DNA of 64,000 nucleotides from a virus. Positions 40,067 to 53,478 of this stretch are shown here, one piece after another (position 1 is the stretch's first letter; each line of letters starts with the position of its first letter). Under the pieces are notes generated by a model. It saw only the letters and a program-made list of their open reading frames with translations, did not search any database and was not told where the DNA came from. The position numbers and the translations under genes were made by a program. The stretch is from IMG/VR virus record IMGVR_UViG_3300021961_000085, positions 1 through 64,000 of that record; one strand, given 5' to 3'.

Positions 40067-40387
40067 TTAAAATGGTAGATCATCGTCCACCATCGAGACT
40101 GCTTGAGGAGGCGCCGTCATCATTGCGTCTCCAGCGTCACGTGGTGCTGCATCTACATTGTTTCCATTGGTCCACACAACCTTAACGTTGCCAAGGTAAA
40201 TCTTGTCTGATTTAGCTTCGCGTTCTTCTTTAGATTGTTGAACTGTTACTGGTCCGTTGTTTCCAAAGTTGTCTAACTCATCATTGATTGTAATCGTGAT
40301 GGGTAGATACTTACCCTTTTTTCCATTAATGACCTTGTCTTTTGGGATTTTAGTAAGGTCAATACTTGTTGCAATAATACTAGCCAT
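40067..40387 (-). CDS. ssb: Single-stranded DNA-binding protein
   Basis: 106 aa, beta-rich OB-like body (KYLPITITINDEL, YLGNVKVVWTN), a flexible A/P/D linker and an acidic tip DDDLPF. This is the SSB C-terminal signature for recruiting replication partners. Next to the primase-helicase. Shorter than bacterial SSB. Confidence 0.75.
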   Translation of the reverse strand: MASIIATSIDLTKIPKDKVINGKKGKYLPITITINDELDNFGNNGPVTVQQSKEEREAKSDKIYLGNVKVVWTNGNNVDAAPRDAGDAMMTAPPQAVSMVDDDLPF

Positions 40388-40574
40388 TTGTTACTTGTTC
40401 TAATTGATTAAACATTCGAATAAGCTGTTTTTTAGTAGCGCCTGTGTTGCGCCGCAGATTGTCTACAGCTTTCAAATGATTTTGATTTTTGTAAAACTCT
40501 GTAGCTGGTGCTTTAATACCTGTTACTGAGCATGTTCTTGTTACTGGTTTTTTGGTTCTTTTAAATTTAATCAT
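40380..40574 (-). CDS. Small basic protein, 64 aa
   Basis: K/R-rich with RTKKPVTRTCSVTGIKAPA and a helical C-terminal half (GATKKQLIRMFNQLEQV). Overlaps ssb by 8 nt. May bind nucleic acid. Family not recognised. Confidence 0.6.
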   Translation of the reverse strand: MIKFKRTKKPVTRTCSVTGIKAPATEFYKNQNHLKAVDNLRRNTGATKKQLIRMFNQLEQVTNG

Positions 40575-41940: not shown

Positions 41941-42699
41941 TTAAAGAAAGTCAAGCACTTGATCATGATCGACGTTCTCAATTAATTTATTTACTGCCTG
42001 TCTTTTTAGCTGCGATACACGCACGTATGCCGAGTCTCCTTTTATACCTATTTTTTCTGCAATCTTTATCGCTGGCAATTTATCACAATCAAGGCCGTAG
42101 GACAGTCGAAGAACTTCATACTCTTTTTCGTCTAGATGTTTCTTCAATAAGCTCTTCAGGTATATGTTTAGTATTTCCTGATTATATTCATCTGAATCAT
42201 CTGGTATGTCAAACACAGGATCATCTGGTTCTCTATCATCTATGCTAAGGAATATAGAGTTAAAGAACATTGCCACCATCTTTTCATCTTTGCCAAACGA
42301 TTTTCGTATATCGTTTAATTTGTGCTCTGGTATGCGTATATCTCCTCTGTTTATATCGATTGCCCTACGTATAGCGCCTTTGATGCGTTTAGTTAGAAAC
42401 GATTTCATCGTCTGCTCTTTGTTTTCTGACTTGTTGAATACATCCCAATTAAGTCTATCAACAGCACTAACTAAACCTATGTGCCCGAACTGAATCAAAT
42501 CAAGCACGCTCAATGTGCCCACGGCTTGCTGAGATGTCGGGAATTTCTTTGCTATATTTTCTACTAGTGGTAAGAACTTAATGATCAACTCGTCGCGTGT
42601 GTATTTGGAATAGTTGTCGTCATAGTCTGGAAGTCTAGCCACAGAGCTGATCACGTCGTTCTTATATCTATTGTAGTTTTGTAAGTTATACTTCTTCAT
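41941..42699 (-). CDS. Phage RNA polymerase sigma factor
   Basis: 252 aa. Region 2 core: LPLVENIAKKFP, LDLIQFGHIGLVSAVDRLNWD, and KSFLTKRIKGAIRRAI (residues ~33-120). Region 4 HTH near 195-245: LRLSYGLDCDKLPAIKIAEK ... QLKRQAVNKL. A separate region 3 is reduced. Redirects host core polymerase, presumably to phage promoters such as the CGA/GATA motifs found in this window or to late promoters. ATG overlaps the preceding HTH gene by 14 nt. Confidence 0.9.
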   Translation of the reverse strand: MKKYNLQNYNRYKNDVISSVARLPDYDDNYSKYTRDELIIKFLPLVENIAKKFPTSQQAVGTLSVLDLIQFGHIGLVSAVDRLNWDVFNKSENKEQTMKSFLTKRIKGAIRRAIDINRGDIRIPEHKLNDIRKSFGKDEKMVAMFFNSIFLSIDDREPDDPVFDIPDDSDEYNQEILNIYLKSLLKKHLDEKEYEVLRLSYGLDCDKLPAIKIAEKIGIKGDSAYVRVSQLKRQAVNKLIENVDHDQVLDFL

Positions 42700-43339
42700 T
42701 TAATCTTTCTTTTTCTTGTTTTAGTTGACTAGACATGTTGCGATGCAATGTCCTGACTGTACAATGCAAGGCGCTAGCTAGTTTATCCATAGTTATTTTT
42801 TCTCCTTCATGATTTATTTCTAACATACTAGTATAAATTAGATCTTCTGTTATTTTGCTACGACCTATTAATTTACCTACAATTCTAAGCTTTTCGCTGA
42901 TCGTAAGAATAATACCTGGTTTAAAAATAACTTTCCTGATTTTATTAACTGGTGGTTCGATGCTACCTGTTATAACTTCATCGATCATTTCGTTTAATAC
43001 TTTCTGTTTTATAAAGAATGTAACAAATCCGTTTTCTTTATTTGCTATAAATCTAAACACATGTTCCATAACTTCTGGTGTTTCATTTTCATTTAGAAAC
43101 TGCAGTACTAGTAAATGCCATTTGAGAGATTTATAGGTTGTGATCTTTGCCTTACTCGTAAACAATGTGTAGCATTGGTGTGTACCATTTTCATAGTACA
43201 TGTACACATCGGTCTCAGACGTAGGCTGATCACTCCAAGGCAAACACCTTGTTACGATTCTTCTATCATGCAACCATTTTATTTTTCTGTTATGTGACAT
43301 TTGCCCCTTACTTGTTATAGTCTTATAGGCTATTGTCAT
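42686..43339 (-). CDS. HTH-containing regulator, 217 aa
   Basis: C-terminal ~50 residues contain a likely helix-turn-helix: KITMDKLASALHCTVRTLHR. The N-terminal part is mixed with many aromatic residues. No family recognised. The 14-nt overlap with the sigma gene suggests a regulatory partner (activator or anti-sigma-like). A second in-frame Met (MSHNRK, residue 14) could be the true start. Confidence 0.65.
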   Translation of the reverse strand: MTIAYKTITSKGQMSHNRKIKWLHDRRIVTRCLPWSDQPTSETDVYMYYENGTHQCYTLFTSKAKITTYKSLKWHLLVLQFLNENETPEVMEHVFRFIANKENGFVTFFIKQKVLNEMIDEVITGSIEPPVNKIRKVIFKPGIILTISEKLRIVGKLIGRSKITEDLIYTSMLEINHEGEKITMDKLASALHCTVRTLHRNMSSQLKQEKERLNEEV

Positions 43340-45519: not shown

Positions 45520-45540
45520 ATTATTATCGTGTGGTGTTCG
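45520..45540 (-). promoter_or_regulatory. Promoter motif P1 (CGA-N8-CGATAATAAT)
   Basis: Minus strand: CGAACAC, four bases, CGATAATAAT, 6 bp before the ligase ATG. One of seven copies with identical internal spacing. A tract of AACAAACAA precedes it, shared with P2. Confidence 0.6.
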
Positions 45541-45551
45541 TTGTTTGTTTG

Positions 45552-45746
45552 TTATAATATTACATTTGTGACTGCGTCCATTATTATTTTCTCTTGAAGC
45601 TTTATGAAGTCTTCATCATTTAATGTGTCCACCCATACAAACTCATCACCTTCTAAAACCTCTTGTGCAGCAACTATAATTCTCACTGCTAATTCTTTTT
45701 CAGCATTTTTCAACTGATCTTTTTCTTCTTGACTTAATTTTAACAT
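45552..45746 (-). CDS. Hypothetical protein, 64 aa
   Basis: Acidic, helical (SQEEKDQLKNAEKELAVRII). No family recognised. Sits between ligase and dCMP deaminase, starting 4 nt after the latter's stop. Confidence 0.65.
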   Translation of the reverse strand: MLKLSQEEKDQLKNAEKELAVRIIVAAQEVLEGDEFVWVDTLNDEDFIKLQEKIIMDAVTNVIL

Positions 45747-45749
45747 TTT

Positions 45750-46163
45750 TTATTTTTTTATTTGTTCTACTTGTATTTTATTCATTTTTAATAAGTTAAG
45801 ACCTTTTGTAGATCCTTCATAAATCTCATCAAACACAACTCGTTTAATTCCTGCTTGTACTATTAGTTTCGAGCACTCGTCACATGGAGATAGCGTAGTA
45901 TACATTGTTGCACCGTCTGACGATGACGTACTTTTTGCCACCTTAACTATAGCGTTTGATTCAGCATGAAGCACTATCCATCTAGTTTTGCCGCTAAACT
46001 CACATTTATTCGACATTCCAGATGGCGTACCATTATAACCGAAAGATAATATGTTGTTATCTTTCACTATAATAGCACCAACCTGCTTGCGTTGGCAATA
46101 GCTTAACGAGCTAATTTCATGCGCTATGCTCATATATATTGCATCAATCCGATCCGACTTCAT
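45750..46163 (-). CDS. dCMP deaminase
   Basis: 137 aa zinc cytidine-deaminase fold. Metal-site motifs LHAESNAI (H-A-E) and LSPCDECSKLI (P-C-x-x-C). Converts dCMP to dUMP for thymidylate synthesis. N-terminal CQRKQVGAIIVKD is typical for the family. Partner of the ThyA-family enzyme at 37.5-38.1 kb. Overlaps the previous gene by 20 nt. Confidence 0.92.
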   Translation of the reverse strand: MKSDRIDAIYMSIAHEISSLSYCQRKQVGAIIVKDNNILSFGYNGTPSGMSNKCEFSGKTRWIVLHAESNAIVKVAKSTSSSDGATMYTTLSPCDECSKLIVQAGIKRVVFDEIYEGSTKGLNLLKMNKIQVEQIKK

Positions 46164-46563
46164 CTATTAATTCATTTAGCTTTGTGTTGTACATTTCTTC
46201 ATATAATCTTTCTACTGCTTCAGCTATGTTCCAATTACCCATTTCGTATTCATCTATGTATATGTATAAACCAGACTTCATAGCGTCTATTAATTTGTCA
46301 AATCTATCTGACTCGTAGTAATAAACATTCTCTCCAATATTTATGCGATTTGGATCTTCTGTTGTTATATACACTGAATAACCATCAACTGTTGTTTCTT
46401 CATAGAAAAATATGTCTGCTACTGCCGAAAATGTATGCACAAATTCAAAATTATACTCTAATTGTACCCAGTGCAGCATTTCGTCTGTATCTAGATCATC
46501 TATACTTTTGAGACCTCGAGATTCCAACTTTTCTGTAAGTTCTTTCATTTTATCCTCTGTCAT
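46144..46563 (-). CDS. Acidic hypothetical protein, 139 aa
   Basis: Strongly acidic and Tyr-rich (NVYYYESDRFDKLIDA, YIYIDEYEMGNW). Such small acidic proteins can mimic DNA, but that is speculation. ATG overlaps the upstream stop by 4 nt. Confidence 0.65.
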   Translation of the reverse strand: MTEDKMKELTEKLESRGLKSIDDLDTDEMLHWVQLEYNFEFVHTFSAVADIFFYEETTVDGYSVYITTEDPNRINIGENVYYYESDRFDKLIDAMKSGLYIYIDEYEMGNWNIAEAVERLYEEMYNTKLNELIDEVGSD

Positions 46564-46799
46564 AGTTCCTCCTTATCAAAAAAGCAATCACCAAATTTAA
46601 TGTCCATCACTGAAATATCAGACGTTAAAACTTCTGAAAATACTTGCAATGCTGTTACTTGTGCGATAGTAAGATCACTATAAACGTACTTGTCTTTTAG
46701 TGATTCATAAATAAGATCAACAGAAAACTTCCATCGATCACGGTTTCGCTCTAGATTTAACTTGAGCTCTGGCTTTAGTCTTTCTAATAATGTTTTCAT
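46560..46799 (-). CDS. Hypothetical protein, 79 aa
   Basis: Helical N-terminus LLERLKPELKLNLERNRDRW, then YSDLTIAQVTALQVFSEVL and a short DIKFGDCFF end. I have seen this general pattern in small phage proteins but know no function. Confidence 0.65.
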   Translation of the reverse strand: MKTLLERLKPELKLNLERNRDRWKFSVDLIYESLKDKYVYSDLTIAQVTALQVFSEVLTSDISVMDIKFGDCFFDKEEL

Positions 46800-46830
46800 A
46801 TAATTTAATTTTTTATTTAATATCCTATTG

Positions 46831-47055
46831 TCATCGTAAATGCTTTGAAACGTCTTTAACAGCCATATTAAATTGCCTTATAAACATTAATTTTACTGTT
46901 TCATCCATGATAGCGTTGCCAACTTCGTCCAATGGTAAGCCTTCAAATATGTGCGAATAGTCTTTAATTACTCTATCTATTATATCGTAACGCATGATTT
47001 CAAACATATCCTCAGCTAGATTGCTAGCTATATTATCTACAATTTCTTTATTCAT
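46831..47055 (-). CDS. Hypothetical protein, 74 aa
   Basis: Helical, acidic N-terminus, C-terminal RQFNMAVKDVSKHLR. One base before the previous gene's stop. Unknown function. Confidence 0.6.
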   Translation of the reverse strand: MNKEIVDNIASNLAEDMFEIMRYDIIDRVIKDYSHIFEGLPLDEVGNAIMDETVKLMFIRQFNMAVKDVSKHLR

Positions 47056-47056
47056 A

Positions 47057-47326
47057 TCAATTTCCTTTTTCTATTGTGCCTTCTTTTGTGACCATAAAAG
47101 CTATTTGATCTAATTTATGACCTGCCGTGGCAAGAAATACCCGAACTTGAAAAGTTATGTCGCGATCGGTGCCATTGAGCTTTAGCGAAGAAACATCGTA
47201 TTTGTACACTTTGCCATCGCTCTGATCAAGAACCCAAACGTATTGTCTAGTTTTCTTGACTTTAGCATTAAACAACATATCTTCTATGTTTTCTAAGAAA
47301 TCTTGCCAGTCTTTGTCATTTTTCAT
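47057..47326 (-). CDS. Hypothetical protein, 89 aa
   Basis: Beta-rich middle (QYVWVLDQSDGKVYKYDV) and FQVRVFLATAGHKLDQI. Unknown. First gene behind promoter motif P2, 4 bp upstream, implying a leader of only a few nucleotides or none. Confidence 0.65.
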   Translation of the reverse strand: MKNDKDWQDFLENIEDMLFNAKVKKTRQYVWVLDQSDGKVYKYDVSSLKLNGTDRDITFQVRVFLATAGHKLDQIAFMVTKEGTIEKGN

Positions 47327-47330
47327 TTGT

Positions 47331-47351
47331 TATATTATCGTTAAGTGTTCG
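47331..47351 (-). promoter_or_regulatory. Promoter motif P2 (CGA-N8-CGATAATATA)
   Basis: Minus strand: CGAACAC, TTAA, CGATAATATA. It overlaps the last codons of the upstream gene and lies 4 bp before the next ATG. Preceded by an A-rich tract (ACAAACAAAAAA), as at P1. Confidence 0.65.
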
Positions 47352-47811
47352 TTTTTTGTTTGTATTGCTCTGGTTGCGTAAGATATTTTCTTACTTCGTG
47401 CCAATCTTCAAATGGTTTTTGACCAAAATGTATGTGCTTGCCCTTGAATTCACCTGCACCATTAGCTGTTCTATCGTCAATTAAGAAATCACCGATCATA
47501 AGATCTTTACGATGCGATAAGATTAGACGTTTATAAGCTAACTTACGCAAGTTTGTAGCACACCAAATACGCTTATCCGTCCAAGCATTTACGTTATTCC
47601 ATGGAGCGGTTGATAAAAAATATACTTCATAATAAGTTTGAAGTACTGCTATAGATGATAAAGCATTTTCCATCATTGGTGGATCAAGGAATAGTTCCTT
47701 GTCAAATGATGTTGCTGCACCTATATTTACGTTTTCACCGTGTCTTTTCTTTGCGTGTGATTCAAGATCAACTACAACACCGTCAAGATCTATATATAGT
47801 ATTTTTTTCAT
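47341..47811 (-). CDS. 5'(3')-deoxyribonucleotidase-like HAD phosphatase
   Basis: 156 aa. HAD motif I YIDLDGVVVD at residues 4-13 and motif FLSTAPWNN near 90. LIDDRTANG near 118 is the acidic motif. Matches the NT5C family that dephosphorylates dNMPs. Works with the other nucleotide enzymes, perhaps to recycle or to remove an unwanted dNMP. Confidence 0.8.
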   Translation of the reverse strand: MKKILYIDLDGVVVDLESHAKKRHGENVNIGAATSFDKELFLDPPMMENALSSIAVLQTYYEVYFLSTAPWNNVNAWTDKRIWCATNLRKLAYKRLILSHRKDLMIGDFLIDDRTANGAGEFKGKHIHFGQKPFEDWHEVRKYLTQPEQYKQKTNT

Positions 47812-48233
47812 AATTTTATAAGTTTGTAAACCTCTTTTGCTTCTTCTTCTGCCCAGGTTATTATTTCTTCTTCTTTGTTTATGTCGTAGTTATGTCTTGA
47901 AAATGATTGATGTGTTAACTCGTGCATTACTAATGCAAAAAGCTCTATGTCATCATTAGCTCTTGACATATTTATAAAAACAAACTCATGAGTTTTATCA
48001 GGCGCGATATTAGACCACCCTGCTATATAAGCTTGTTTGCTGGAATTTACATGACACTTACAGTCTTTTTTGCTTAATCCATGCATACTGTCTACTTTGT
48101 AGTAGTCAAATATTTCGCATGGATTATTACTTAGCAGTAAAGTATAGCCATTTCTTTGTATTGTTTTCATCTGAGAGAATAAAAAGGTATTAAAACTTAT
48201 CAAACCTAAAGCGGTTAACATTATTTTCTTCAT
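47808..48233 (-). CDS. Exported zincin-like metallopeptidase
   Basis: 141 aa. Signal peptide (MKKIMLTALGLISFNTFLFS). HELTHQSF near residue 104 is an HExxH zinc motif, with EEEIITWAEEEA downstream offering the third ligand. Two Cys upstream (CKCHV) may be bridged. A secreted peptidase expressed with early genes. Overlaps the nucleotidase by 4 nt. Confidence 0.75.
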   Translation of the reverse strand: MKKIMLTALGLISFNTFLFSQMKTIQRNGYTLLLSNNPCEIFDYYKVDSMHGLSKKDCKCHVNSSKQAYIAGWSNIAPDKTHEFVFINMSRANDDIELFALVMHELTHQSFSRHNYDINKEEEIITWAEEEAKEVYKLIKL

Positions 48234-48237
48234 AATG

Positions 48238-48438
48238 CTAATCCTCTTCGCCTTCTTCGTACCATTCTGTCATTCTTTCTAAGACTTCCTCGTTGTCTAC
48301 TATTTGCTGCGCTATAGCAAACACTCTTTTAAATCCTGCTAATTCATAAGGGGTGAAGTCATACAGATCTCCATCTTCGATTGCATTTAAGCAATCCATC
48401 ATTGCTTTGGCCGTATTTTCAAAACGGCAATAACTCAT
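48238..48438 (-). CDS. MSYCRFENT-type small phage protein
   Basis: 66 aa, acidic. Start chosen at MSYCRFENT because this N-terminus recurs in small phage proteins. Two extra in-frame ATGs lie 6 and 9 nt upstream (48444, 48447). Acidic C-terminus EWYEEGEED. Unknown function. Confidence 0.7.
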   Translation of the reverse strand: MSYCRFENTAKAMMDCLNAIEDGDLYDFTPYELAGFKRVFAIAQQIVDNEEVLERMTEWYEEGEED

Positions 48439-48461
48439 ATTCATCATATTTCTTTTAATTA

Positions 48462-48728
48462 TTAATAAAAACTGTTAACCCAATTTGTAAATTCTGTAGC
48501 TGAAGTAATGCCATCTACATCATCTCCTAAAGGAAAAGGATGTGTTAAGTCTTCGAAGTAAGCTCGACATTCAACAAGATCCCATGTGTAAACTGCTGCA
48601 AAACTGTGATCTTCTTCAAAATCATGTATAGAAATAGAATAATTCTTTTCATTTATTTCTATCTTGTCAAAAGATCTTAACAATTTCATTGCTTCAAGCT
48701 TTGTTTTTGTTGCTTTAATATCTATCAT
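48462..48728 (-). CDS. Hypothetical protein, 88 aa
   Basis: Acidic, beta-rich centre (YSISIHDFEEDHSFAAVYTW). One-base overlap with the next gene upstream. Unknown. Confidence 0.65.
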   Translation of the reverse strand: MIDIKATKTKLEAMKLLRSFDKIEINEKNYSISIHDFEEDHSFAAVYTWDLVECRAYFEDLTHPFPLGDDVDGITSATEFTNWVNSFY

Positions 48729-49045
48729 TATTTTTTTAAATTTAATATATTAAAAAATTGAACTCCTTTCTCGATTAAACTCTCGGCTCGAGCCAATCGT
48801 CTATTACTATCATGTATGTAACTGCTCTTGTTAGGTGTTACTCCTAAATCTATCATTGAGAAGTTAAATTCCCACTTACCACCCACGAATCGTTCACCCG
48901 TAAATCGCTCAACAGCATTGTAGCATTCATAAGTCATTTTTAACTTGCATCCACTTGCTTCTATCGTGTCTTGGATGATCACTACATCGTGAGATCTTTC
49001 TTGATCATGCAGTTTACTTCGATAAAGTTCTTTTATTTTTTTCAT
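48728..49045 (-). CDS. Hypothetical protein, 105 aa
   Basis: Mixed composition (VVIIQDTIEASGCKLKMTYE; ERFTGERFVGGKWEF). No family recognised. Within a tightly spaced early operon. Confidence 0.65.
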   Translation of the reverse strand: MKKIKELYRSKLHDQERSHDVVIIQDTIEASGCKLKMTYECYNAVERFTGERFVGGKWEFNFSMIDLGVTPNKSSYIHDSNRRLARAESLIEKGVQFFNILNLKK

Positions 49046-49050
49046 TAGAT

Positions 49051-49242
49051 TTATTTTTTATCGGTTAATTTAATTCTTCTTGTCCTTGGAAATCCTTTTG
49101 CCTTTCCCGTTGGAGTAGCAAACGTTGGTTCTAACGTATAGTAAACATTCCAACCATAAAAATTTACATAAAAAACCTTCGTCTTATTTCCTTTTTTTCT
49201 GATGTAATTTTGTGCCTCTTTAAGTGAATATTCTTTTACCAT
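49051..49242 (-). CDS. Small basic protein, 63 aa
   Basis: Basic, with NFYGWNVYYTLEPTFATPTG and RTRRIKLTDKK at the end. One-base overlap with the previous gene's stop. Unknown. Confidence 0.6.
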   Translation of the reverse strand: MVKEYSLKEAQNYIRKKGNKTKVFYVNFYGWNVYYTLEPTFATPTGKAKGFPRTRRIKLTDKK

Positions 49243-49691
49243 TATATGTTTTTATATCTTTTTTCTAATCTTACTTGCAATAATTCACTGTGTTGACGTA
49301 TCATTGTGTCTCTAGTCCACTTACTAATTGTCATTTTTGGCTTTTGTACGTGGTTTTTAAGTATAAACTTAGCTAAAAACTCTTCACGCTGTTCTTGCAA
49401 TTTGATGAGAACACGCTGGTAAGCTTTGTTTATTACTACTTTCTTTTGCAAATGACTCCACTCTGCTGTTTCAACAAGTCTCACTGGATTTATTTGATAG
49501 ATCTGGCGAGGAGATATTTTCCTCACATAGCCTGTCGCATAAGTTGCAAACATCATTGGTCTTGTCTTACCGCTTGCTAGCACATCACGCTCTGGTAGAG
49601 CAAATACTTTAGTGCCGTTAGCTTTTTGCCTTGCTGTAGTTACTTCTTTCACTCCAAGCAAATCAAGTATTTCTAATGGTTTTAAATTCAT
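49242..49691 (-). CDS. Basic protein behind tRNA-like element A
   Basis: 149 aa from the ATG at 49691. A longer frame to 49742 would read through the 3' half of the tRNA-like element and is rejected. N-terminal MNLKPLEILDLLGVKEVTTA looks like a short HTH, followed by YRKISPRQ-type beta sequence, a helical basic C-terminal half and a K-rich end. Possible DNA/RNA-binding protein. Its start codon is 2 nt after the element's acceptor-like 3' end. Confidence 0.7.
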   Translation of the reverse strand: MNLKPLEILDLLGVKEVTTARQKANGTKVFALPERDVLASGKTRPMMFATYATGYVRKISPRQIYQINPVRLVETAEWSHLQKKVVINKAYQRVLIKLQEQREEFLAKFILKNHVQKPKMTISKWTRDTMIRQHSELLQVRLEKRYKNI

Positions 49692-49693
49692 AG

Positions 49694-49778
49694 TGGACGT
49701 GGCAGGAATCGAACCTGCGTCTGAGATACTGTCTTGCCGCAATTGGCGAAGATACTGTCTCGCTCACCTTTCACGCCC
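49694..49778 (-). ncRNA. tRNA-like element A (85 nt, intercistronic)
   Basis: Minus strand: 5' GGGCGTG pairs over 7 bp with 3' CACGTCC (one G-T), followed by discriminator-like A and then CT-ATG. Next to it is a canonical T-arm, GCAGG-TTCGATT-CCTGC. The middle (54 nt) does not fold into a normal D-arm and anticodon arm. AGACAGTATCT occurs twice there as a direct repeat, and a 7-nt anticodon loop with a stable 5-bp stem is not found. The element fills the gap between two genes with 7 nt on its 5' side and 2 nt on its 3' side. Not confidently a functional tRNA. Confidence 0.65.
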
Positions 49779-49785
49779 ATATTAG

Positions 49786-50004
49786 TTATAATGGATATAT
49801 ATCTTCCCACCCATCTACGGCATTATTATTATAATACCTAGCCTTTTTAGGTTCTACATACTCATCAGGCCAAATTGAATATTGCTCATTTGGAAACATC
49901 TCCTCTAAACTACTTAACAACTCATTAGCTTCCTCTAGTGAAAGTTGAGTTGTATGTTCTTCAGGATAATTTGTTTCATTCATTATCTTATATAATTCTT
50001 TCAT
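49786..50004 (-). CDS. Acidic small protein between tRNA-like elements
   Basis: 72 aa from the ATG at 50004, 2 nt after element B. The longer frame to 50043 again runs through the element. Acidic, with LSLEEANELLSSLEEMF and the end DGWEDIYPL. The stop is 7 nt before element A. Function unknown. Confidence 0.7.
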   Translation of the reverse strand: MKELYKIMNETNYPEEHTTQLSLEEANELLSSLEEMFPNEQYSIWPDEYVEPKKARYYNNNAVDGWEDIYPL

Positions 50005-50006
50005 AG

Positions 50007-50109
50007 TGGACGTGGCAGGAGTCGAACCTGCGTTACAACACACTCGTACGTTTTTCGGTCGAATTACAGCATCACACTCATGCCTGTGTTGTCTGAACCT
50101 TTCACGCCC
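50007..50109 (-). ncRNA. tRNA-like element B (103 nt, intercistronic)
   Basis: Same acceptor (GGGCGTG/CACGTCC-A), same following AAAGGT, and near-identical T-arm (GCAGG-TTCGACT-CCTGC) as element A. The interior is different: an 8-bp stem ACAACACA/TGTGTTGT encloses a CAGGCAT/ATGCTG hairpin with a 7-nt loop. Acceptor plus T-arm plus a long interior helix in place of D and anticodon arms recalls tmRNA architecture, but no tag frame was recognised. Gap to flanking genes is 7 nt and 2 nt, as in element A. Confidence 0.65.
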
Positions 50110-50116
50110 ATGTAGG

Positions 50117-50329
50117 TTATCTTAGGCAAGTGCCATAACCTTTGCGTTTTGCAGATTTATTTATCTCGTCTGCGAGAGATTTTGGTAAGAATTGTACTTC
50201 ATTACCTGTTTTATGGTTTACAATTTGCACTGCGCCATATTTTTCTGTCTTAGAGCAATCTACGCATGTAGTATAACTATACTTTATACGCACAGGGTGG
50301 ATCGCATTACCGCATCTACATATTTTCAT
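50117..50329 (-). CDS. Zinc-ribbon protein (DksA/TraR-like)
   Basis: 70 aa from the ATG at 50329. A TTG 6 nt upstream is a less likely start. Four Cys: MKICRCGN and TTCVDCSK, in a CxC...CxxC arrangement close to the C4 zinc finger of DksA/TraR proteins, which bind RNA polymerase. The coiled coil of full DksA is absent. Starts within a few nt of promoter motif P3. Confidence 0.6.
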   Translation of the reverse strand: MKICRCGNAIHPVRIKYSYTTCVDCSKTEKYGAVQIVNHKTGNEVQFLPKSLADEINKSAKRKGYGTCLR

Positions 50330-50336
50330 AATCAAA

Positions 50337-50357
50337 CATATTATCGATCACTATCCG
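50337..50357 (-). promoter_or_regulatory. Promoter motif P3 (CGG-N8-CGATAATATG)
   Basis: Minus strand: CGGATAG, TGAT, CGATAATATG. Fits the shared spacing with one change (CGG for CGA). Overlaps the stop of the upstream gene and lies 7 bp before the zinc-ribbon gene. Would drive the operon containing elements B and A. Confidence 0.55.
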
Positions 50358-50547
50358 TTTTTCGATTGTCATCTATTAATCCATTTTCTATCAAGTCTCT
50401 TGCAGTTCTACCGAACCACCCTTGTAGTTGATACGCTAATCCAGTATCATGAAGATACTGCCATGCTTCAATGATTTGATCTTCTGACTCGGCCTCTATG
50501 AAGCCTTCCGCCAGTCCTACTGCTGTGTAATTATCCATTTTATTCAT
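50341..50547 (-). CDS. AWQYLHDTGLAYQLQGWFG-type phage protein
   Basis: 68 aa. The central motif EAWQYLHDTGLAYQLQGWFG plus RTARDLIE is strongly conserved in my memory of small phage proteins, function unknown. An alternative start is the third codon Met region (MDNYT). The following gene upstream lies 82 nt away. Confidence 0.75.
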   Translation of the reverse strand: MNKMDNYTAVGLAEGFIEAESEDQIIEAWQYLHDTGLAYQLQGWFGRTARDLIENGLIDDNRKTDSDR

Positions 50548-50629
50548 TTTTCTATTTCTTTTGGTACAAAAAAACCATCCTCAACTATGTTTTCTTTTCT
50601 TCATTACTAAATTTCATAGGTACTCTAGC

Positions 50630-50776
50630 TTATCCATTTGCCGCATGTTGTTTATTCACTGATACGTCAGATCTTCTACCACCGACTGAAGTTAATTTCT
50701 TTTTGTACGCTAAGAAAAGATCATTCTCTTTCAAGATCTCGTCTAATTTCTTTGGATTTCTCTTGTTATTTTTCAT
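50630..50776 (-). CDS. Small basic protein, 48 aa
   Basis: 48 aa, K/N/R-rich (MKNNKRNPKKLDEILKEND, then LTSVGGRRSDVSVN). Its ATG overlaps the stop of the gene upstream (ATGA), supporting translation. The 82-nt stretch between its stop and the next gene contains only 7-10 codon frames. Confidence 0.6.
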   Translation of the reverse strand: MKNNKRNPKKLDEILKENDLFLAYKKKLTSVGGRRSDVSVNKQHAANG

Positions 50777-51042
50777 CGCTTTGGATTATTAAAACTGTTC
50801 CACTTATTGATTAACTCTTGATTCCAACCACCTAGCTTGGCAACTTTGTCTTTGATGATCGCTAATTCACGCTCACCCTTTAACCATACTCTGTGATCGT
50901 CACTCATTTCGTACCACCCGTCATGCTTTTCGAACATTTCTTCGATCGAAAGATCTTCAAAACGATCTTCATACTCGTAAAAGTAAACACTCGCTGCTGG
51001 GCACTGTGGCACACGTCTTCTGTATTTTTTCATGTAACTCAT
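50773..51042 (-). CDS. Hypothetical protein behind tRNA-like element C
   Basis: 89 aa from ATG at 51042, 2 nt after element C. A GTG start at 51069 would translate the element's T-arm and is rejected. Basic N-terminus YMKKYRRRVPQ, then acidic SIEEMFEKHDGWYEM and a helical end. Unknown function. Confidence 0.7.
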   Translation of the reverse strand: MSYMKKYRRRVPQCPAASVYFYEYEDRFEDLSIEEMFEKHDGWYEMSDDHRVWLKGERELAIIKDKVAKLGGWNQELINKWNSFNNPKR

Positions 51043-51044
51043 AG

Positions 51045-51091
51045 AACCTTGAGTGAGGATCGCACTCACACACGCAAACTATTGCAAGGTT
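51045..51091 (-). ncRNA. tRNA-like minihelix C (47 nt, 5' leader)
   Basis: Minus strand: AACCTTG pairs perfectly with CAAGGTT (7 bp). Between them lie a 15-nt linker and a T-arm-like hairpin GTGAG-TGCGATC-CTCAC with one unpaired base before the closing strand. Then CT-ATG. No D or anticodon arm. Its 5' base is 6 nt downstream of promoter motif P4, so the leader RNA would consist almost only of this structure. Confidence 0.6.
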
Positions 51092-51097
51092 GTTATA

Positions 51098-51118
51098 TAT
51101 ATTATCGAGCACTGTTCG
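51098..51118 (-). promoter_or_regulatory. Promoter motif P4 (CGA-N8-CGATAATATA)
   Basis: Minus strand: CGAACAG, TGCT, CGATAATATA. Lies between the 34-aa membrane gene and element C. Six bases separate it from the 5' base of element C. Confidence 0.65.
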
Positions 51119-51129
51119 TGCTTCATTTG

Positions 51130-51234
51130 CTAGCTTCCACCAAACACATAGTATATGAAGTTAACAAAGAATAGGATCGCTATTATTGCAATAACTGTTC
51201 CGATTGCATCGATTATTTCTTCTTTTTTGTTCAT
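51130..51234 (-). CDS. Single-span membrane micropeptide (34 aa)
   Basis: 34 aa: charged N-terminus MNKKEEIIDA, then one hydrophobic helix (IGTVIAIIAILFFVNFIYY) and a short end. ATG overlaps the stop of the upstream gene (ATGA). Likely inner-membrane, early expressed, function unknown. Confidence 0.6.
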   Translation of the reverse strand: MNKKEEIIDAIGTVIAIIAILFFVNFIYYVFGGS

Positions 51235-51413
51235 ATTCCGCCTCCTAACGCTATGTCTAACTTGTACACCAACTTAGGCGCTACATTTAATGCTACTATG
51301 ATAGCGAAACCGATCGCACCTACAAGTGCTGTTACTGCCGCGCCTGCTAGTGCTTTTACTGTTACACTTGATATTGTAACAATTGCTTTGTGTTGAAATT
51401 TTACTTTGTTCAT
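51231..51413 (-). CDS. Small membrane protein behind tRNA-like element D
   Basis: 60 aa from ATG at 51413, 2 nt after element D. Basic N-terminus (MNKVKFQHKAIV) and a long hydrophobic A/V/I/G stretch (residues ~15-46, VKALAGAAVTALVGAIGF) forming one or two transmembrane helices. Together with the 34-aa gene it forms a two-gene membrane-peptide unit under P5. Confidence 0.65.
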   Translation of the reverse strand: MNKVKFQHKAIVTISSVTVKALAGAAVTALVGAIGFAIIVALNVAPKLVYKLDIALGGGI

Positions 51414-51415
51414 AG

Positions 51416-51457
51416 AAGTCACCGTAAGAATCGAACTTACACTAACCATTGTGACTT
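51416..51457 (-). ncRNA. tRNA-like minihelix D (42 nt, 5' leader)
   Basis: Minus strand: AAGTCAC pairs perfectly with GTGACTT (7 bp). Inside are a 10-nt linker AATGGTTAGT (D-loop-like GGTTAG) and a canonical T-arm GTAAG-TTCGATT-CTTAC plus one base. Then CT-ATG. Same layout as element C with unrelated stem sequences, so base-pairing is conserved while sequence is not. The 5' base is 6 nt after promoter motif P5, as in C. Confidence 0.65.
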
Positions 51458-51463
51458 GGTATA

Positions 51464-51484
51464 TATACTATCCAGACACCATCG
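51464..51484 (-). promoter_or_regulatory. Promoter motif P5 (CGA-N8-GGATAGTATA)
   Basis: Minus strand: CGATGGT, GTCT, GGATAGTATA. Distance of 6 nt to element D equals the P4-element C distance. Confidence 0.6.
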
Positions 51485-51523
51485 CAATAGCGTTGTAAAG
51501 TATATTGTTTGTTTGAGTGATCA

Positions 51524-51553
51524 GAAATGGTGAGAGATGTAGTTCACCACTTC
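51524..51553 (-). terminator. Hairpin downstream of 76-aa gene
   Basis: GAAGTGGTGA pairs with TCACCATTTC over 10 bp (one G-T), loop of 10 nt. It begins 18 nt after the stop of the upstream gene (51572). No clear U tract follows on the minus strand, so termination or mRNA 3' stabilisation are both possible. Confidence 0.6.
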
Positions 51554-51571
51554 TGTGCAAGAATTTAAATA

Positions 51572-51802
51572 TTATTTCAAATTTTCTTGTAACACTCGTG
51601 GAATTGAAGTACTTGAAGTATAACTTTTGTACTTTTGGAAACACTCCATTGCTTCTAATTTTTCTTTCATTAGAGCAAATGCATCGTCGTGATTGTACTC
51701 GAAAGTTTTACCACTTTTGAAAGTAACTTTGATAATTGCATTTTTACCAACAAGTGATTGACGAATAACGAATCTTTTCATTTCTAATTTTTCTTTTGAC
51801 AT
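51572..51802 (-). CDS. Hypothetical early protein, 76 aa
   Basis: Basic N-terminal half (MKRFVIRQSLVGKNAIIKVT), helical middle, S/T-rich end. Monocistronic: own promoter motif P6 upstream and a hairpin downstream. Very early position suggests a host-takeover protein, by inference. Confidence 0.65.
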   Translation of the reverse strand: MSKEKLEMKRFVIRQSLVGKNAIIKVTFKSGKTFEYNHDDAFALMKEKLEAMECFQKYKSYTSSTSIPRVLQENLK

Positions 51803-51838
51803 AACTTTTTTTATATTTAATTGTTTAACTTAATTTAC

Positions 51839-51859
51839 TATATTATCGATCGTGCATCG
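51839..51859 (-). promoter_or_regulatory. Promoter motif P6 (CGA-N8-CGATAATATA)
   Basis: Minus strand: CGATGCA, CGAT, CGATAATATA, 36 bp before the ATG of the 76-aa gene. Confidence 0.65.
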
Positions 51860-51878
51860 TAATTTATTTGTGAGTGAA

Positions 51879-51989
51879 TTACCAAACTTGCAAACAAATG
51901 TATATTAACAAGAATGGCGAGAGGATCATGGCAAGCACAAGCGCAAGATCGATCAATCTGCTTACTTGTATGTTCTTATTGTTTTTCAT
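51879..51989 (-). CDS. Single-span membrane micropeptide (36 aa)
   Basis: 36 aa from ATG at 51989: MKNNKNIQVSRLIDLALVLA continuing into a strongly hydrophobic helix. The frame extends upstream to 52190, but promoter motif P7 lies 7 bp before this ATG, and the extension has no plausible leader. First gene of the minus unit. Confidence 0.6.
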   Translation of the reverse strand: MKNNKNIQVSRLIDLALVLAMILSPFLLIYICLQVW

Positions 51990-51996
51990 ATTCGTA

Positions 51997-52017
51997 TATA
52001 CTATCGAAAGGATCTCG
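51997..52017 (-). promoter_or_regulatory. Promoter motif P7 (CGA-N8-CGATAGTATA)
   Basis: Minus strand: CGAGATC, CTTT, CGATAGTATA, 7 bp before the 36-aa gene. It is the outermost copy, next to the divergent control region, and would transcribe the whole early unit if no terminator stops it. Confidence 0.6.
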
Positions 52018-52268: not shown

Positions 52269-52311
52269 CTATAATTAAATACACTTTTTTACCTGTAATT
52301 ATATGGTGGAG

Positions 52312-53478
52312 ATGCCAAAGATACATACTATAGCAACAGACAATACAATTACTGGTACCGATAAGTTATTAGGATCAGATGGAGCAGTTGGCTCAGCTAA
52401 CGCTACTAAGAACTATACCATGTCTGGTATTAGCAGTTACGTGTTGAGTCAAACAGACACAAACACGTTTAAGACTATAGAAGTAGCTGGGCAGGCAGAT
52501 ATTGTTGCTGACGTGAATGCAGATACGCTTACTTTGGTGGCGGGTGATTATATCAGTATAGCAACAGACGCATCGACAGACACTATCACTATAACAGGTA
52601 CTAACACTCCATATACAGCAGGTGCTGGTTTGGACCTGACTGGTACTACGTTGTCAGTTGATTCAACGGTGGTTGTTACATCTGGTGCTCAAACAATAGC
52701 TGGTGTTAAGACATTCAGCGACACTATAACTGGTAGCATAGATGGAAATGCAGCTACAGTAACGAACGGAGTTTACACTATAGGTGATCAAACAATTTAC
52801 GGGGTTAAAACTTTCGACGATGTTATATCTGGAGATATTGACGGTAATGCTGTTACTGTTACTAATGGTGTTTATACTACGGGGAATCAAACGATAGGAG
52901 GCACCAAGACATTTAGTGATACTATTATTGGTAGTATTGATGGAAACGCTGGAACAGTTACCAATGGTGTATATACCACTGGCAATCAAAGCATATACGG
53001 TGTTAAGTCTTTTCCAGACGGCATAGCTGTACCTGGTTTTGATTTTACGACATCATTTGGCTCTATAAAAGAAGCTAAAGTGATAGTTACTACCGCTAAT
53101 TTGATTTCATTAAACGGTGGTGGAGATTATACGTTAATATCTTCTCCTGGATCAAACAAAATGATCGTACCTATATCTATTATAGCATTCTTGGATTACA
53201 ATTCTACTACGTACAACTTTAGCGAGGATTTGTATATTGGACTAGAGGGACTGGTTGGTTCAAATCCAGAAGAGTATTTTACGAAGATTAGATCACAGCT
53301 AGTAAACAGTACTGTTAATAAATTTGAGTATGCGCCACAGGTATTTGCCACTGATCACATAGAAGTAGGCACTGATACGGCATTAGTGTTGCATGCGACA
53401 ACTGGAAACAGTGTAAATACAGGTAATTCTGATTTAGTACTTAATATACTATACAGGGTAGTAGACCTTACAACATAA
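52312..53478 (+). CDS. Fibre-like repeat protein
   Basis: 388 aa from ATG at 52312 (MPKIHTIATDNT). An upstream ATG at 52303 is possible, but the start chosen aligns with the gene at 57340 (MPRISNIAVDQS). Residues ~125-240 contain three imperfect ~28-residue repeats around DGNAxTVTNGVYTxGxQ followed by IxGVKTF. A distinct C-terminal domain follows. Likely a tail fibre or virion appendage with beta-structured repeats. First gene of the plus unit. Confidence 0.7.
   Translation: MPKIHTIATDNTITGTDKLLGSDGAVGSANATKNYTMSGISSYVLSQTDTNTFKTIEVAGQADIVADVNADTLTLVAGDYISIATDASTDTITITGTNTPYTAGAGLDLTGTTLSVDSTVVVTSGAQTIAGVKTFSDTITGSIDGNAATVTNGVYTIGDQTIYGVKTFDDVISGDIDGNAVTVTNGVYTTGNQTIGGTKTFSDTIIGSIDGNAGTVTNGVYTTGNQSIYGVKSFPDGIAVPGFDFTTSFGSIKEAKVIVTTANLISLNGGGDYTLISSPGSNKMIVPISIIAFLDYNSTTYNFSEDLYIGLEGLVGSNPEEYFTKIRSQLVNSTVNKFEYAPQVFATDHIEVGTDTALVLHATTGNSVNTGNSDLVLNILYRVVDLTT

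Follow-up and report, generated by a model that had tools for sequence, protein, structure and literature searches.

Phage promoters outside the host's usual class are known in several forms. The phage-encoded sigma factors gp28 and gp34 of SPO1 and gp55 of T4 have promoter classes of their own; the middle promoters of T4 combine a MotA box with a -10 element, and MotA acts together with the host sigma70; the T7 promoter (AATACGA-N8-AG) is a 17-bp element directly upstream of the start site (+1) and is read by a cognate single-subunit polymerase. Among bacterial classes, the FliA/sigma28 promoter has the form TAAA-N15-GCCGATAA. Here we analyze a repeated element, originally described as seven copies of CGA-N8-SGATARTATA, in the IMG/VR virus record IMGVR_UViG_3300021961_000085; of its 65,415 bases, the first 64,000 form the stretch under analysis (the window). 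Our comparison indicates that, among phages, this early motif is found only in carriers of a sigma factor of their own and of a conserved partner protein, and that it is unlike the usual promoters of the host. An open-access literature search revealed no prior description of this promoter element.

The window is most of a phage from a group that infects Bacteroidota. Its terminase and portal proteins match phage families, and the terminase matches those of Flavobacterium, Cellulophaga, Maribacter and Tenacibaculum phages, some of which are classed as Pachyviridae or Pervagoviridae. A phage collection searched with the window yielded no close DNA relative. Relatives were collected from IMG/VR, 69 loci via the sigma gene (about 53-86% identical) and one via the ligase gene, giving 70 loci in total; the phage group that carries the motif is large, mostly uncultured and marine. 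The evidence consists mostly of co-occurrence among related genomes, and the counts are not independent events. Furthermore, the matrix and several thresholds were tuned on these same loci, the exceptions being a test that left the window out and the cross-validation of a late motif. Positions within the element are given as idx, where idx 0 is the C of CGA and idx 24 the putative +1.

All seven copies of the original prediction (P1-P7) are present on the minus strand at the positions given for them. The exact pattern has five matches in the window, all on the minus strand, and the reversed-pattern control has none. When up to two mismatches are allowed, 13 matches are found as against 4.8 expected and a maximum of 11 in 100 shuffles. 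An independent test is stronger: a matrix trained on other phages only, with the window and its three closest relatives left out, predicts seven window sites with a score above 3, again without any on the plus strand, and the mean for 40 dinucleotide-resampled windows is 0.1. Five of these sites are copies already reported (CGA at 47351, 51859, 45540, 51118 and 50357), and two are new (40600 and 46836), with counterparts in close relatives. The low matrix scores of P5 (51484) and P7 (52017) arise because both carry GATAGTAT; the close relative L008 has sites resembling each of them. The count of seven is thus borne out, but the total is nine when the two weaker extra sites are included.

The alignment of sites in relatives reads TTACAAACTAAATACGA-N8-GGATAATATAAnTG, a consensus that can also be written TTACAAACTAAAYACGA-N8-nGATAATATAAnT[G/A]. 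The part described originally is real, but the element runs about 13 bp further upstream, to a -35 box. The -35 region is YACRRACTWA at idx -13 to -4, with the hexamer CAAACT at idx -11 to -6; ACGA follows at idx -1 to 2 (-25 to -22 from the putative +1) in most phages, and the -10 element GATAAT occupies idx 12-17. The spacer from CAAACT to GATAAT is 17 bp, in fixed register in the scored sites and within the 16-18 bp of sigma70-type promoters. The roles proposed for the two original parts agree with this layout: GATAAT behaves as a -10, and CGA is not a -35, the conserved -35 box being located further upstream. The base 5' of GATAAT, predicted to be C or G, is so in the reported sites (C in most sites of the window), but in other clades T or A also occurs beside G. 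The eight bases 3' of CGA are little conserved. One clade (L041, L058, L061, L062 and L069) shows CACGGACTTA and GATAATAT at unchanged spacing and lacks ACGA; because it retains the -35 and the -10, we regard this pair as the core and ACGA as an added element. Further variants are seen in L033, L015 and L070. Judged from these alignments, the element belongs to the bipartite promoters of sigma70 type and carries an additional ACGA in its spacer.

At the downstream end, a pyrimidine-purine step is found at idx 23-24, with a purine at idx 24 in 334 of 334 distinct sites and a pyrimidine at idx 23 in 295 of them. The purine was already invariant in the set chosen by regular expression, which does not cover that column. 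The start codon coincides exactly with idx 24 in 39 sites and follows it by 19-22 nt in 90; these peaks argue for initiation at idx 24 or immediately before it, and for some leaderless messages. We infer that transcription starts at the purine 7 nt after the -10. Distances to genes, which had been measured from the motif, are best counted from this putative +1, which for P4 as for P5 would be located 3 nt before a tRNA-like leader. In many sites the motif itself creates an in-frame ATG at idx 9. In many relatives' sites, e.g. in L024 and L075, ATGTAAC (a start codon followed at once by a stop) spans the putative +1.

The string AATACGA is shared with the T7 promoter, and the similarity of AAATACGA-N8-nG to AATACGA-N8-AG raises the question of whether the motif is recognised by a phage RNA polymerase of the single-subunit or virion type. 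A start at idx 12, as this would imply, would also suit the few ATGs at idx 18. We consider this very improbable: conservation extends 26 bp upstream of such a start, the poorly conserved bases after CGA leave no conserved block between CGA and the start, a -35 box is located upstream, and no such polymerase was found among the window proteins scanned, which are part of the set (a 2702-aa protein has no family).

The distribution of the motif in relatives is strongly strand-specific. The relaxed pattern CGR-N8-SGATARTA has 133 matches in the 70 loci, 132 of them on the strand of the sigma gene, as against one match each for the reversed pattern and for resampled sequence. Matrix matches, too, fall almost only on this strand, and of about 340 sites in relatives essentially all are on the early-gene strand; among 2.4 million positions of reversed sequence, none scores above 8 with the first matrix and eight do with the final one. 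In a general form, the pattern occurs in at least 118 stretches of IMG/VR. The 16 near-full genomes possess 3-15 sites each; apart from a few weak matches elsewhere, these lie in the early-strand block, in its upstream part, which is rich in promoters. Conservation, strand and position in relatives all uphold the original interpretation of the motif as a promoter. A repeated and strand-biased motif might also be a protein-binding or packaging site with no role in transcription, but this is hardly credible in view of the fixed -35/-10 spacing, the preferred start codon distances, the restriction to the early strand and the many unrelated genes downstream.

The sigma gene (41941-42699, minus strand) encodes a protein of 252 aa that matches PHROG 351 (E=7.9e-21). 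Among the sigma proteins of relatives, Pfam Sigma70_r2 is detected in 67 of 67 and Sigma70_r4 in 60 of 67 (E<=0.1). The best PDB profile match is FliA (2e-11), with further matches to SigA and RpoD; the predicted fold is SigA-like, with a Foldseek probability of 1.00 to SigA. According to these profile and fold comparisons, the 252-aa protein is a phage-encoded sigma70-family factor with regions 2 and 4. CTAAA and GATAA elements in the motif likewise recall FliA/sigma28 promoters. Identity with that class was rejected, given that TAAA and GATAA are 18 nt apart here versus 22 and that GCC is absent. The partner gene (42686-43339, minus strand; 217 aa) overlaps the start of the sigma gene by 14 nt, and its product belongs to no known family; a match to it is present in 98 of 100 loci matching either sigma or partner. 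The predicted structure of the partner is mostly helical, with C-terminal helices resembling a helix-turn-helix (mean predicted local distance difference test score, pLDDT, 85); compared with the PDB it gave no fold match, and one viral structure matched.

In phages, the motif co-occurs with sigma and partner and is absent where they are absent, which is an association only and to which single sites in bacteria form an exception. All three terminase-selected contigs longer than 60 kb carry both sigma and motif, and seven relatives, cultured or complete, that have neither sigma nor partner have no motif either. The single loose matches that turn up in six of these seven are isolated, and a coding-like string is common to three of the six.

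Based on these results, the likeliest model, to which we give about an even chance, is one in which the host core RNA polymerase, equipped with the phage sigma factor and helped by the partner, reads the early or delayed-early promoters of sigma-carrying Bacteroidota podoviruses. The sigma factor would direct the host core to the -35 and -10, the DNA-binding-like partner would assist, possibly via the ACGA/-35 region, and initiation would take place at the conserved purine. Because the sigma-partner pair sits downstream of these promoters, their firing would produce more sigma in a self-amplifying loop, which would need a small seed of sigma or basal transcription. We infer the binding factor, the contact between ACGA and the partner, and the loop itself. 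An alternative sigma and/or activator, as originally suggested, is the best candidate reader; the conserved -35 box TACAAACT, 17 bp upstream of GATAAT, had been missed. As in SPO1 and with T4 gp55, the phage has a sigma70-family protein as well as a class of non-host promoters confined to one temporal block; unlike in those systems, that block is the early one, where the motif precedes even the sigma gene, an ACGA element occupies the spacer, and there is a conserved partner of no known family. With T4 middle promoters the element shares a conserved upstream part beyond an ordinary -35 and a phage DNA-binding cofactor (predicted here); it differs in its regular -35 at 17 bp and its own sigma, and the partner has no similarity to MotA in the searches run.

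Mapping of transcription start sites in F. psychrophilum has defined the flavobacterial motifs TAnnTTTG (sigmaA), sigma54, TAnnTTGY and a CGT box of the extracytoplasmic function (ECF) type (PMC9723704), and the Bacteroidota sigmaA box TAnnTTTG is positioned at -12 to -5 (PMC9723704). Neither the early nor the late phage motif resembles these mapped sigma motifs (PMC9723704). TAnnTTTG is absent from the early consensus, and where the flavobacterial ECF motif (SM6) has its CGT box, the -10 region reads GATAATAT. In sigma phages, TAnnTTTG shows no excess on either strand (14 observed vs 12.9 expected for early, 10 vs 10.2 for late), which agrees with the original statement that the motif differs from the Bacteroidota housekeeping pattern. 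In contrast, sigmaA promoters (TTG / TAnnTTTG) of the shared host group are used by the sigma-less phages elemo (10 vs 1.5 late, 6 vs 0.6 early) and MW202828 (10 vs 0.7 late), and host-type TAnnTTTG promoters precede the late genes of the sigma-less relatives NC_055853 and MW202828. Sigma phages therefore appear to have abandoned host promoters on both strands. Upstream of early genes in MW202828 (L194-L195), the palindrome GTGTCGTTAACGACAC recurs, perhaps as an operator for the annotated repressor.

Host sigmaA could still take part if the site were compound, i.e. if sigmaA polymerase acted on TA-N4-TG while the partner, or sigma as an activator, bound TACAAACTAAATACGA in the manner of T4 MotA. 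The conservation upstream and in the spacer indeed exceeds that of an ordinary -35/-10, the partner's C-terminal helices would suit such a role, and one clade has GATAATATnTTTG, which contains TAnnTTTG. Yet TTTG is missing from most sites, and the sigmaA register would put the start at about idx 29, whereas 39 sites have their ATG exactly at idx 24. We regard this arrangement as improbable.

The late strand carries a motif of its own. Expectation maximisation identified the promoter-like sequence TTAAAA-N14-ATGTRATWATA upstream of late genes, distinct from the early motif, with examples on the plus strand at 1078-1114 (TAAAA-N-CGTAATAGTA, upstream of the late gene at 1139) and at 52295. Cross-validation confirmed it: of 169 regions upstream of late genes that had been held out, 45 exceed a score of 12, as against 2 in shuffled and 4 in reversed sequence.

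The strict pattern, searched for in 84,980 species genomes, occurs in 41 stretches. Clusters of sites occur on phage-contig-like sequences in the Bacteroidota bins JAGVEE010000375, QQUU01000066 and PANU01000065 and on a 5.5 kb contig in an Aliivibrio bin. Single matches outside Bacteroidota fall mostly within long reading frames, as by chance. About a dozen single sites in Bacteroidota lie between genes, in most cases with 24-45 nt to the next gene downstream; they recur before similar genes and fit the consensus at positions outside the search pattern. The genomes concerned have one or two strong copies each; sigma was not found in them (one weak partial match), nor was the partner in the eight tested. 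Near-perfect single copies precede chromosomal genes in L360, L344, L347, L345, L352, L358, L362, L351, L357, L349, L365, L372 and L339 (Bacteroidota; two genomes probably misbinned). The genes downstream include those of TerB-domain proteins, a family of 459-461 aa and small secreted proteins, and MoxR-like ATPase, trypsin-like or WYL genes are found in some neighbourhoods. These few chromosomal genes may be infection-sensing, switched on only by the transcription machinery of an infecting phage, an idea that we consider rather unlikely. A general host regulon was rejected: in one host family, matches were confined to 4 of 149 genomes, about two of which look real, with one control match. The idea that an ECF sigma reads the chromosomal sites was likewise rejected; an ECF gene lies beside one site, and no homologue was seen near the other ten host sites. 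Another strong site is located on L353 (QCKH01000009.1, 63,985 bp), from a Prochlorococcus single cell, where the downstream protein resembles by eye that of window positions 46144-46563; L353 is probably a Bacteroidota phage co-sorted with the Prochlorococcus cell.

What is more challenging is the question of which promoters the phage sigma serves. In a classical cascade, a host factor, i.e. an undescribed host sigma or sigmaA with a host activator, would read the early promoters, and the phage sigma would serve only the late ones. This, the main rival of the model above, is possible, if somewhat doubtful. It would account for a sigma gene downstream of early promoters, for the distinct late motif and for the near-perfect chromosomal sites, and TA-N4-TG at idx 17-24 is the skeleton of the host TAnnTTTG box. 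However, no sigma motif mapped in F. psychrophilum matches the early element, matches are scarce in the host family, the site-bearing genomes have one or two strong copies, and sigma-less relatives that infect Flavobacteriia lack the motif. Several observations also weigh against an early role of the phage sigma. Since its gene is located downstream of the promoters that it would activate, sigma-dependent early transcription would need a seed, and the head of the early block showed no consistent promoter of host type. Bacteroidota chromosomes without sigma and partner possess near-perfect single sites, and the second non-host motif, before the late genes of these phages, offers sigma an alternative target. 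The sub-classes of the early motif run parallel to the phage phylogeny; no specificity residues of sigma or partner are assignable, covariation being confounded by phylogeny. Finally, the few related sites with an ATG at idx 18 place it upstream of the putative +1.

For an abundant, almost uncultured phage group, the element would provide a transcription map: a 35-bp mark of early genes, by which sigma-carrying phages can be told from sigma-less ones and phage contigs recognised within bacterial genome bins. It hints at a module of two proteins, sigma and partner, that would take over promoter recognition from the host, in a phylum with unusual promoters of its own. The chromosomal sites make host genes wired to phage promoters a directly testable idea.

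The nine sites of the window are all on the minus strand, their -10 elements are GATAAT unless stated otherwise, and each +1 given is putative. At the head of the early block, a lone TTG-N22-TAnnTTTG (52316-52348, minus strand) could be a host-type seed promoter; however, it falls within a late gene, at the 5' end, and no consistent counterpart was seen in relatives. The first putative early-strand promoter is P7 (51993-52030; -35-like CGCAACACTT, ACGA, -10 GATAGT, putative +1 51993), before a small open reading frame (ORF) starting at 51989; its matrix score is -1.9, and L008 has a similar first site. P6 (51835-51872; -35 CACAAATAAA, ACGA, +1 51835, score 19.9) is located 33 nt upstream of the ORF 51572-51802. 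P5 (51460-51497; -35 TACAACGCTA, GCGA, -10 GATAGT, +1 51460) and P4 (51094-51131; -35 AGCAAATGAA, ACGA, +1 51094, score 18.9) precede the tRNA-like leaders, and L008 has a similar site and leader at the place of P5. P3 (50333-50370; -35 GACAATCGAA, ACGG, +1 50333, score 16.1) lies before the gene of a small Cys-rich protein (start 50326), and similar Cys-rich genes are found downstream of such sites in relatives. For P2 (47327-47364; -35 TACAAACAAA, ACGA, score 23.0), the putative +1 at 47327 is one nt before the ATG of the ORF 47057-47326. The new site P8 (46812-46849; -35-like TTCAAAGCAT, ACGA, -10-like GATATT, score 9.0) is upstream of the ORF 46560-46799 and has a similar site in L008, and P1 (45516-45553; -35 AACAAACAAA, ACGA, +1 45516, score 19.4) precedes the DNA ligase gene (start 45514). 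The other new site, P9 (40576-40613; -35 GACAAACAAA, ACAA, -10-like GATATT, +1 40576, score 12.8), lies before the ORF 40380-40574, with similar sites in L007, L008 and L009.

Four tRNA-like leaders are located on the minus strand (49691-49778, 50004-50109, 51045-51091 and 51416-51457), with an acceptor stem and a T-arm and no ordinary tRNA body. They stop 2-3 nt before start codons, and for two of them Rfam gives matches to tmRNA ends that do not reach the gathering cutoff. A simple structure search of the 16 genomes returned 18 such or tRNA-like elements, some of them probably ordinary tRNAs, vs 0 in reversed sequence. The leader at P5 shows a paired change in L008.

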